From Deltaproteobacteria bacterium (GTDB lineage Bacteria > Desulfobacterota > DSM-4660 > Desulfatiglandales > Desulfatiglandaceae): a DNA stretch of 64,000 nucleotides. The stretch is taken from contig JAIPDI010000006.1 of NCBI GenBank assembly GCA_021737785.1, positions 62,001-126,000 on the forward strand. Direction: 5' to 3'. The position numbers were made by a program, and so were the translations under genes. This document shows, one piece after another, positions 44,757 to 55,748 of this stretch (position 1 is its first letter; the number at the start of each line of letters is the position of its first letter). A model generated the notes under the pieces. That model saw nothing but the letters and a program-made list of their open reading frames with translations. It was not told where the DNA came from and searched no databases.

Positions 44757-46124
44757 ATGCCTTCTCAAAGGCTGTTGGTCATCGGAGGGAATGCGGCAGG
44801 GATGACTGCGGCCGCAAAGGCCGCGCGGCTCAATAAGGAGCTGGAAATTACGGTATTTGAAAAGGGCCGCCACGTCTCCTATGCGGCCTGAGGAATTCCT
44901 TATCTTATCGGCCGGGTGGTCGATAGTCCCAGGCATCTGATAGCAAAAACTCCGGAAGCGTTATGGGAGGAACAGGGCGTTGTTGTAAAGGTGCTCCACC
45001 AGGTGGAAGAGATCGACCTGAAACAGACGAGGATACGTCTTCGAGAGCAGGACAATCCCGACACCTGGTGGGAAGCCTATGATATGCTTATGATCGCTAC
45101 GGGCGCGCTCCCGATCAGGCCGCCGGTGGAAGGCATCGCCGCCAGAGGAATATTCGGAATTAACACCCTGCAGAGCGGTCTGGAGGTGATGGCGTTTATT
45201 GAAGAGAGAGGCCCGAAAAATGCTGTGGTTATCGGAGGGGGGTATATCGGTCTTGAGATGGCGGAAAATCTTATTTTGCGGGGGATGCACGTCAGTCTCA
45301 TAGAAAGGGCCCCGGAGGTGATGGGGACCCTGGACCCGGACATGGGAACGCTGGTTTCAAAAGCGCTGATCGATATAGGGGTAAAGCTTTATAGAAAAGA
45401 AAGCCTTGAAGGCTTCGAGGTCAGCAAAAAACACGTTCAAAGCGTGGTAACCGACAAGAGGACATTGCCGGCCGACCTGGTTATCCTTGGCATGGGCGTA
45501 AAACCCAACGTTTCCCTTGCCAAAGAAGCAGGAATTAAACTTGGCCTGAGCGGGGCCGTCCAGGTGGATGATACCATGCGAACCAGCGACGACAATGTGT
45601 GGGCTGGAGGGGATTGCGCCGAATCCTTCCATCTGATCAGCAGACGGCCTGTAAACATCGCCCTGGGTACAGTGGCCAACAAGCACGGCCGGGTCGCCGG
45701 GACGAATATGAGCGGCGGGTACGCTGTTTTTCCGGGGTTGGTGGGGACCGCCGTCAGCAAGATATGCTCACTGGAAGTGGCCAGGACCGGTCTTCAGGAG
45801 AAAGAACTTCAGCAAACCGGGAGAGAATATGTGTCGGCGGTTATAGAAAGCACAACACGAGCAAGCTATTATCCGGATGCAGGCACAATTTCAGTGAAAA
45901 TCCTGGCTGAAAAGGGGAACGGGAGGCTGCTTGGAGGTCAAATCGTTGGGAAGGAGGGTGCTGCCAAACGTATTGACATATTGGCAACGGCACTGCACGC
46001 CGGGATGACCGTGGAGGAAATCGCAGACCTCGATCTAAGCTACGCGCCTCCCTATTCCCCTTTGTGGGATCCGGTGGCCATCGGCGCTCGTATCGCTATG
46101 AAAAAACTGGCTGAACATCAGTGA
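44757..46124 (+). CDS. CoA-disulfide-reductase-like flavoprotein with selenocysteine (in-frame TGA) at the catalytic position
   Basis: From the ATG at 44757 (GGAGG 8 bases upstream) the frame runs 456 codons with one TGA at 44889-44891, codon 45. Before it are the FAD motif (LLVIGGNAAGMTAAAKAARL) and HVSYAA, and after it GIPYLIGR. In CoA-disulfide reductases and NADH oxidases this stretch is SYAxCGxPY, so TGA replaces exactly the redox-active Cys (Cys43 of the staphylococcal enzyme; Cys42 in the paralogue at 50055). The rest is intact: NAD motif VVIGGGYIGLEMAENLI, GVKPNVSLAKEAG and dimerisation domain SYYPDAGTISVKILAEKG. A hairpin 12-35 bases past the TGA could be the SECIS. It should reduce CoA or protein disulfides, persulfides or O2 with NAD(P)H. 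The rubrerythrin gene follows by 63 bases. Confidence 0.85.
44904..44926 (+). promoter_or_regulatory. Putative bacterial SECIS hairpin
   Basis: CTTATCGGCC pairs with GGTCGATAG (one bulged T, one G-U) and leaves a GGGT loop, 22-25 bases after the TGA at 44889. Bacterial SECIS elements lie within the coding region just after the UGA, with a short stem and G/U in the apical loop, at about this distance. Confidence 0.6.
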
Positions 46125-49815: not shown

Positions 49816-50054
49816 CCTGTTCTCTTGTTTCCGAATACACGATCCACCCTATTCCCCCGCTAATATTGTATCGATTAACCTAAACAGGGTTTCACTACCG
49901 TGGGTCGCCGATGAGCGATATGTGTCTATTTTGTTTCAGCTCTCGGAAAGAGATCCCCACGCGTTCGCGAGAATTACCCATAAACCAACTTCTCTGCAGG
50001 TTTTTCTGCAAGGCAGGATTACAGATTTTCAGGACGAACACGGGAGAACGACTG

Positions 50055-51722
50055 ATGAGACTTATCGTTGTGGGAGGCGTTGCAGGCGGCGCCACTGCAG
50101 TGACACGCGCCAGAAGACTTTCCGAAACTGCGGACATTGTCCTGTTTGAACGCGGATTCTATGTGTCCTATGCCAATTGCGGATTGCCCTATTACATCGG
50201 AGGAGAAATCGAAAAGCGGGATGATCTGTTCATCGCCTCTCCGGAGCGGCTCAAGGCCAGATATCGTATTGACGTGAGAACCTCACAGGAGGTTATGGAG
50301 ATAGACCGAAGCGTAAAGGAGGTTACGGTAAAGGACCACACCACCCAAGAGGTATTCAGGGAAGGTTATGACAAACTCATTCTCTCCCCCGGTGCCCGCC
50401 CGACAATGCCCCCGATTCCCGGCATAAACTCCGGCAAGGTCTTTACCTTGAGGGATCTGCCGAATTCGGACAGCATTAAGCACCACCTGGCCGGGAATAA
50501 CATTAACTCCGCAGTGATAGTGGGAGGCGGATCCATCGGACTGGAATCGGCTGAAAATTTCAGCCGTCAGGGTGTGTCGGTGAGTATTGTAGAAATGGGC
50601 GATCAGGTGATGCCGGGCCTGGACTACGACATGGCGGTACTCATTCACCGGCACCTGCGGGATCAAGATATCGATCTTCATCTGGGGGAGAGTGTCGACC
50701 GGTTTCATGAACAGGAAGACCGCATCGTGGTCAGCACCGCGAAAGGCCTCAACATAACAACCGACCTGGTGTTGCTTTCCATCGGCGTAAGGCCGGAAAA
50801 GATCCTTGCAGAGAAATCGGGATTGTCCATAGGAGAGCGCGGGGGGATCGTGGTGGATGATACGATGCGCACCTCGGATCCGGACATTTATGCCATAGGT
50901 GACGCCATAGAGGTTCAGGATTTTGTCTCAGGCGAAAAGCGTCTGCTCGCTCTGGCAGGCCCGGCCAACCGGCAGGGAAGAATTGCGGCGGACAATGTAA
51001 TGGGCCGTCAATCCCGATTTACGCCCGTTTTGGGAACAAACATAACCCGGGTTTTTGATTTGGTAGCGGCTTCCACGGGTAACAGCGAACGCTCCCTGAT
51101 GAGAACAGGAACACCGTACAGGATGTCCTTCACCCATTCATATCATCACGCATCCTATTACCCCGGAAGCAGACTCCTTTCCATCAAATTGCTTTTCAAC
51201 CCGGAAGGGGGAAAACTGCTCGGTGCGCAGGTGGTGGGGGAAGAGGGTGTGGACAAACGAATTGATATACTGGCTACGGCCTTGCGAGCCGGCATGTCGG
51301 TGTACGACCTGGAAGAGTTGGAGCTTGCCTATGCACCCCAGTTCGGCTCCGCCAAAGACCCTGTCAATATCGCGGGATTTGTATCCGCCAATATACTCAG
51401 GGGGGATGTGGAGGCGGTCCATTGGAACGAACTGGAAAGCTTGGATAAGGACCGATACGTGCTGCTGGATGTACGCACGTACGAGGAGGTGAAACAGACC
51501 GGAACCATCATGGACGCCGTACATATTCATATCGACGAATTGCGGGATCGACTGTTCGAACTCGATGCCGGCAAGGTCTACATTGCGTACTGCACGGTAA
51601 GCCTGAGAGGATACATCGCATGCCGGATTCTCGTTCAAAATGGCTTTAAGGCCAAGATTCTGAGCGGCGGCTTTGAAACGTGGTCACCGGTCCAGGAAGA
51701 TAAGGAAGAGAGGAGCAGATAA
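50055..51722 (+). CDS. CoA-disulfide reductase with C-terminal rhodanese domain (persulfide reductase type)
   Basis: A 555-residue flavoprotein starting at 50055 (GGAG 9 bases upstream). FAD motif [19 protein letters not shown]; catalytic Cys42 in [16 protein letters not shown] motif [16 protein letters not shown]; dimerisation domain ([20 protein letters not shown]) with the conserved Tyr pair. The rhodanese domain (about 450-552) has active-site Cys513 in AYCTVSLRG. Fusions of this kind in Bacillus and Shewanella reduce CoA disulfide, CoA persulfide and polysulfide with NAD(P)H, using the rhodanese Cys as acceptor. It is the Cys-containing paralogue of the TGA-containing gene at 44757. It heads a long plus-strand run of redox genes. 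Confidence 0.92.
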
Positions 51723-55015: not shown

Positions 55016-55123
55016 CCCTGCTGAAAGAGGGCGATTCACTCACTCCTCTTTTTCTGGCGTCTCCCGGCGCATTATGGGGAAGATGCTTCCCGGGACAACA
55101 TAGAATCGATGAAAGGAGATTTC

Positions 55124-55687
55124 ATGGGAACGGTACCTTGGAAAGAGAATTTGGATCAGGAATTGGATGCGGCGCAGAGTCACGATAAGCCCTTGTTTCT
55201 GGATTTTTTTAATCCCGGGTGAATCGGCTGCAAACAGATGGATGCGGTTACGTATCCCGATAAAGACGTTATCGAGCAAATCGAGAAACATGTCATCCCT
55301 GTTCGCATCCCTTTTGACAACCCCCTCGCCGAGGAATTTGTGGTGAAATGGACGCCCAATCTCCTCTTTCTGGATCGGCATAGAAAGACACATCATCGGG
55401 TTATCGGCTTTTTACCGCCGGAGGAGTTGATTCCGACCATTCTGTTGGGAGTCGGGAAGACATATTTGGAGACGGAAGAGTTAGATCGTTCCCTCGGAGT
55501 GTTGAATGAAATGATCGAAAAACATCCCTTGAGCCACGCTGCTCCTGAAGCCGTGTACTTTATCGGGGTTTCGCTGTACAAAAAAACCCACAAGGCCCAG
55601 CCTCTCAAGGAGGCATACGAAAAAATTCAAGCCAAGTACCCCAATTCGGAGTGGGTCAAGAGGGCGGCCCCCTACCGGCTGCTCTAA
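55124..55687 (+). CDS. Thioredoxin-like selenoprotein (UxxC) with TPR-like tail
   Basis: From the ATG at 55124 (AAAGGAG, 5 bases) the frame has 187 sense codons with one TGA at 55220-55222, codon 33. The context FLDFFNPG-U-IGCKQMDA is that of a thioredoxin CxxC active site, so TGA replaces the first, nucleophilic Cys (U33-I-G-C36). The sequence after it is fully thioredoxin-like (TYPDKDVIEQIEKHVIPVRI; TPNLLFLDR, with the cis-Pro loop region near it). The last ~80 residues form helix pairs like TPR units (YLETEELDRSLGVLNEMIEK; YFIGVSLYKKTHKAQPLKEA). Without recoding the product would be a 32-residue peptide. A perfect 18-bp hairpin follows the gene. Its substrate is unknown; the neighbours suggest thiol or persulfide reduction. 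Confidence 0.85.
55228..55247 (+). promoter_or_regulatory. Possible SECIS hairpin of the thioredoxin-like gene
   Basis: CTGCA pairs with TGCGG (one G-U) around AACAGATGGA, which begins 11 bases after the TGA. An outer ATCGG/CCGAT pair could extend it. The match to known SECIS shape is weaker than at 44904. Confidence 0.35.
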
Positions 55688-55709: not shown

Positions 55710-55748
55710 AACAATAACATCTCCGCAAGGTGCGGAGATGTTATTGTT
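55710..55748 (+). terminator. Terminator with perfect 18-bp stem
   Basis: AACAATAACATCTCCGCA and TGCGGAGATGTTATTGTT pair completely around AGG; the 3' arm ends in TTATTGTTCTTG. It lies 22 bases after the selenoprotein stop and may serve both strands, since a minus-strand gene ends at 55857. Confidence 0.8.

Follow-up and report, generated by a model that had tools for sequence, protein, structure and literature searches.

This locus raises the question of whether an in-frame TGA codon is read as selenocysteine (Sec) and, if so, what the resulting protein would do. Within the window (i.e., the whole stretch of 64,000 nt that was analyzed), the frame at positions 55124 to 55687 starts with ATG, has TGA at codon 33 as its sole internal stop (context, FFNPG-U-IGCKQM), and continues through 154 sense codons to TAA. 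Direct reading of the frame and of the ribosome-binding site ahead of the ATG thus confirmed what the first-pass annotation had described. The same annotation held that a conventional gene finder would start the gene at 55238, and the standard-code open reading frame (ORF) list indeed yields only 55238 to 55687 (149 amino acids [aa]) at this locus; because this ORF starts at 55238, the UxxC site is lost from the predicted product. Standard ORF calling therefore truncates a widespread selenoprotein family at Met39 and removes its active site. The features referred to below are as follows.

55112 to 55119, + strand: ribosome-binding site (AAAGGAGA), read directly; gap to the ATG, 4 nt
55124 to 55687, + strand: predicted selenoprotein coding sequence; 187 residues, codon 33 TGA as Sec, stop codon TAA
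55124 to 55435, + strand: thioredoxin-fold domain (PF13098), from Pfam; closest solved fold, DsbD-gamma
55220 to 55222, + strand: in-frame TGA, predicted Sec33, residue 1 of UxxC, from codon comparison among homologues
55229 to 55231, + strand: Cys36, predicted resolving cysteine of UxxC; invariant in 94 Sec-form genes
55240 to 55257, + strand: bacterial SECIS (bSECIS) hairpin GGAUGC-[NGUNAC]-GUAUCC; 6-bp stem, loop at 55246 to 55251, invariant GU at 55247 to 55248
55355 to 55357, + strand: Pro78 of the WTP motif; invariant in 55 sequences, non-Sec forms included
55436 to 55684, + strand: C-terminal helical tail, about two predicted TPR repeats; conserved end W-x-K/R-R-A-x-P-Y-R-L
55710 to 55748, + strand: probable transcription terminator; perfect inverted repeat of 17 bp around a 5-nt loop, 22 nt past the stop codon
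44757 to 46124, + strand: second TGA gene, a pyridine nucleotide-disulfide oxidoreductase (CoA-disulfide reductase/NADH oxidase type); TGA at 44889 to 44891, SYAA-U-GIP

On the basis of the comparisons described below, 55124 to 55687 is almost certainly a genuine selenoprotein gene in which TGA codon 33 is read as Sec. Our best explanation as a whole (i.e., Sec insertion at UGA 33 by way of a SECIS, yielding a UxxC thioredoxin-fold redox protein with a TPR tail) has a probability of roughly 0.93. The alternative that survives best, a chaperedoxin role, differs from this explanation in function only, with an identical Sec reading, and is weighed below together with the fold; the others concern the TGA itself.

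Conservation of the TGA codon

Scanning 84,980 species genomes with the Sec residue masked as X, so that Sec did not bias the search, yielded 202 relatives. Codon 33 was TGA in 80 of 80 genome loci (the best 80 of the 202 relatives), which places the in-frame TGA, as judged from these alignments, far beyond chance. A search of 99 relatives gave 11 other genomes with full-length homologues, each with one TGA. After de-duplication at 93%, all 94 distinct Sec-form genes had TGA and never TAA or TAG; these 94 genes were chosen for one in-frame TGA, and the unselected count is that of the 80 loci. Family members were found in 84 of the 395 genomes of the phylum surveyed. The Sec-form relatives belong mainly to Desulfobacterota and also to Nitrospirota and anammox planctomycetes, and members include the isolate Geobacter argillaceus as well as metagenome-assembled genomes (MAGs) labeled Syntrophus, Desulfomonile, Nitrospirae, Nitrospinota, and the anammox genera Brocadia and Jettenia (some of the MAG labels are unreliable).

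Of the ten genes retrieved that lack TGA, eight encode Cys at this position (CVGC, CGGC, or CxxS types), and the other two do not. Both Sec- and Cys-bearing homologues therefore align at codon 33, where the first-pass annotation had proposed looking for Cys, and its claim that Sec replaces the active-site Cys agrees with the Cys found at the aligned position of most non-Sec homologues. A tree of 104 proteins (unrooted and with long branches) requires three switches between the Sec and non-Sec states.

Could the locus instead hold two short frames or a decayed gene, with a 32-codon stub ending at the TGA and the 149-aa ORF from 55238 as the real product? Standard ORF calling yields exactly this ORF, and Met39 is well conserved (92 of the 94 Sec-form genes). 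However, the 26 codons upstream of the TGA are conserved as protein (variation of 0.61 at third codon positions versus 0.35 at first and 0.26 at second positions), and W6, F28, N30, and P31 are invariant in close homologues. Moreover, the stop is always TGA in the 80 loci, no ribosome site was seen by eye ahead of Met39, the non-Sec homologues read straight through the site, and translation beginning at Met39 would leave the thioredoxin fold truncated. We consider this reading very improbable. Even less credence attaches to a sequencing error or a pseudogene: a lone in-frame stop is compatible with either, but TGA recurs at this codon in 80 loci drawn from many independent assemblies, that of the isolate G. 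argillaceus among them, and a covarying hairpin lies downstream of it. Error had earlier been judged unlikely from the presence of two TGA-at-Cys genes within 11 kb, and the second TGA does lie about 10.3 kb away.

Several members of the family depart from the common form. One genome (G385) has three copies of the Sec form; two of these (L162) lie about 7 kb from each other, and the second has UTGC, not UIGC. A divergent Sec subfamily (L184) has DFWFDG-U-LGC; its Cys counterpart (L152) has DFWFDG-C-VGC and comes from a genome in which no SelB exceeded the cut-off. Two homologues (L159 and L161) have no Cys at the active-site motif and retain both the tail and the WTP motif.

SECIS hairpin and Sec machinery

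The range from 55223 to 55260 had been proposed for SECIS prediction, and a covarying hairpin was found inside that range, 20 to 37 nt after the U of the UGA. Among 41 distinct sequences, 99.0% of the cells pair in this hairpin versus 86.6% in shuffles, and shifted registers pair in at most 57.5% of the cells. Both sides were changed in 32 cells versus 6.3 in shuffles, the observed value being reached by 0 of 500 shuffles. Loop positions 1 and 4 covary (A-U, G-U, G-C, C-G, and U-A) around the invariant GU; since these are the third codon positions of Ala (or Thr) and Val, protein selection cannot account for their covariation. Codon +10 is NCG in all 94 Sec-form genes (Thr ACG, 83; Ser TCG, 10; Ala GCG, 1), and its G is the 3' partner in the C-G closing pair; Asp +7 is GAT in 74 of 75 cases, a synonymous constraint. 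RNAalifold recovered the same 6-bp stem unprompted, and the hairpin was not found in the non-Sec genes. Judged by covariation, the hairpin at 55240 to 55257 is a real SECIS.

The Escherichia coli fdhF SECIS, which is bound by SelB, has a G-C pair and an exposed G and U, and the in-loop pair around the GU in the present family resembles this arrangement. Taken as a set, the homologues show a bacterial SECIS that covaries cleanly and has a base pair closing off the invariant GU in the loop. The bSECIS model specifies a loop of 3 to 9 nt, a stem of 4 to 16 bp, a G in the first two loop positions, a distance of 16 to 37 nt from the UGA, a minimum free energy (MFE) of −7.5 kcal/mol or lower, and an in-loop pair that is mostly present (PMC13188914). 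The window hairpin agrees with the model throughout (loop, 6 nt; stem, 6 bp; G at loop position 1 or 2; spacing, 23 nt; MFE, −10.4 kcal/mol). Rfam searches of the window and of the site returned no match to a SECIS family. A first fold of 55215 to 55270 gave a different, weak structure (z, −1.3), which was discarded when the homologue comparison revealed the true hairpin instead.

The Sec machinery was searched for in the source genome (5.33 Mb; 96 contigs). A tRNA-Sec was found at 73.6 bits, and ARAGORN called the same tRNA as tRNA-SeC with anticodon TCA (i.e., tRNA-Sec[UCA]). The genome also carries selA (616.9 bits), selB (397.4 bits), and selD (372.9 bits, with one TGA inside the gene). 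The check for selABCD proposed by the first-pass annotation thus returned this tRNA and all three genes, and the genome is not one that lacks the Sec machinery. SelB exceeded the cut-off in 17 of 17 Sec-form Desulfobacterota genomes tested, and no SelB did so in 4 of 10 genomes bearing non-Sec forms. It was also present in 9 of 11 further Sec-form genomes, mostly of other phyla; the remaining two are MAGs from other phyla, in which SelB is probably missing because the MAGs are incomplete. A genome-wide reading of UGA as another residue, such as Trp, which a TGA-open frame by itself cannot discriminate from Sec, is the least probable alternative of all, given that ordinary genes end at TGA (e.g., 44757 to 46124), that the homologues without TGA mostly have Cys and none has Trp, and that the Sec machinery and a SECIS are present.

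Under the Sec reading, SelB carrying Sec-tRNA(Sec) would bind the hairpin at 55240 to 55257, and Sec would be inserted at UGA codon 33 to give the 187-residue protein.

Predicted fold and function

The protein matched Pfam Thioredoxin_2 (PF13098) at 8.5e-11 (42.6 bits; cut-off, 27), and the TPR match in Pfam was weak. An AlphaFold model from a 55-sequence alignment had a mean pLDDT of 97.9 and a pTM of 0.92. In this model, residues 1 to 108 match DsbD-gamma (1vrs_E; Z, 14.7; 1.7 Å over 105 residues), and residues 98 to 187 match BamD and a designed TPR (Z of about 12 to 13, near the tool's unremarkable level for helical repeats). The active-site motif U33-I-G-C36 (i.e., UxxC) opens a helix; Pro78 of WTP, which we take to be the cis-proline position of the thioredoxin fold, is invariant as expected for such a residue. 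The predicted architecture is a thioredoxin domain closest to DsbD-gamma followed by about two TPR repeats. The tail that had been noted is present in the model, for which the earlier term "TPR-like" was too weak. The protein has no recognizable signal peptide, and its location is presumably cytoplasmic.

In UxxC thioredoxin chemistry, Sec attacks the oxidized target and Cys resolves the product. Here, Sec33 would attack an oxidized thiol or disulfide, giving a mixed selenide-sulfide that Cys36 would then resolve, with release of the reduced target; the thioredoxin reductase of the cell, or a donor like it, would reduce the resulting Sec33-Cys36 bond. The tail, with its two TPR repeats, probably serves to position partner proteins. 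The likeliest reading, and one that we favor with reservation, is a cytoplasmic disulfide reductase choosing its targets by the TPR tail. Because some members have only CxxS or no Cys, the fold and tail of those members would serve without full redox cycling.

Alternatively, the protein may be a chaperedoxin like CnoX (YbbN), in which the TPR tail would hold unfolding clients and the UxxC site would protect or reduce their cysteines. The domain order is the same (i.e., a thioredoxin domain and then C-terminal TPR helices), Foldseek ranks YbbN (3qou and 3qdn) sixth and seventh with alignments of 190 to 200 columns, and in Caulobacter, CnoX acts as a CxxC oxidoreductase and likewise has a TPR tail (PMC8129009). 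However, the full-length superposition on YbbN is poor (root mean square deviation [RMSD], 11 to 12; 11.9 over 192 aligned columns for 3qou), the tail comprises about two repeats versus ten helices in the longer TPR part of CnoX, the thioredoxin domain is closer to DsbD-gamma, and CnoX has SxxC or CxxC rather than UxxC. We regard this role as unlikely; under it, strict anaerobes and anammox bacteria would have a selenocysteine chaperedoxin whose Sec might speed the repair of oxidized clients on the TPR tail, which, if true, would represent a protein-folding factor dependent on selenium. The Trx-TPR architecture offers a testable function.

Family identity and gene neighborhood

A Sec "thiol:disulfide interchange protein" with PF13098 and UxxC (WP_011366075.1) was predicted previously (PMC9312934, PMC13188914), and such proteins were listed for Geobacter metallireducens, G. 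uraniireducens, and Syntrophus aciditrophicus (PMC1794560). Among the inspected genomes of Geobacteraceae, TGA-bearing genes of the PF13098 type were either members of the window family (including the divergent branch) or W-U-P-H-C thioredoxins. Since the taxa match and the other such genes are canonical thioredoxins, the window family is very probably the named family, WP_011366075.1 being matched by description and taxa rather than by alignment. The two share the Pfam domain, a UxxC with Sec first, and the taxa, window-type homologues occurring in Geobacter and Syntrophus, whereas the accessible portions of the published lists give no TPR tail, SECIS covariation, or such taxonomic breadth. 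Prediction of the named family dates from the 2000s, with no characterization since, a precedent missing from the earlier annotation. The main-text passages searched in three other papers (PMC8318568, PMC1914089, and PMC1242214) do not name the family.

Among other known systems, DsbD shares a thioredoxin-fold disulfide reductase domain (DsbD-gamma, its C-terminal domain); however, it is a membrane protein whose site has Cys and which contains two additional domains, while the window protein is small and stand-alone and has a TPR tail. The canonical Sec thioredoxins of Geobacteraceae and Syntrophus also have a UxxC thioredoxin fold, but their site is WUPHC or WUGHC, they lack the TPR tail, and they are encoded by separate genes in some of the examined genomes. 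On a contig labeled Syntrophus (L080, 4451 to 5300), a canonical Sec thioredoxin (W-U-G-H-C) lies directly upstream of a family member. No NCBIfam model exceeded its cut-off for the window protein, which matched DsbD, TsoB, YbgF, and BamD weakly. The TsoB (NF045694), VPGUxxT (NF041383), and Trx7/PDZ (NF041199) selenoproteins have a related Trx-like domain but differ in motif or architecture, and their scores were far under the cut-offs (50 versus 805, 32 versus 275, and 20 versus 300 bits, respectively). No NCBIfam model covers the family, and the homologue set would be suited to building a family model and a readthrough reporter.

No gene was widely shared among the neighborhoods of 81 loci, and the genome context therefore does not point to a partner or substrate; a rubrerythrin-type gene upstream recurred in only 3 of these loci. 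In the window, the selenoprotein gene comes after a Rubrerythrin/EncFtn-like gene, with rubrerythrin, hemerythrin, and one peroxiredoxin-type gene in its vicinity, and these neighbors fit a role in oxygen or redox stress without proving one.

The second TGA gene of the window (44757 to 46124) matches a known UGxP selenoprotein type and, from its sequence, is of the type of the Sec "NADH oxidase" also listed for G. metallireducens (PMC1794560). A related enzyme with a C-terminal rhodanese domain is encoded at 49911 to 51722 (+ strand), with an ordinary Cys (SYANCGLP) where the gene at 44757 has Sec.
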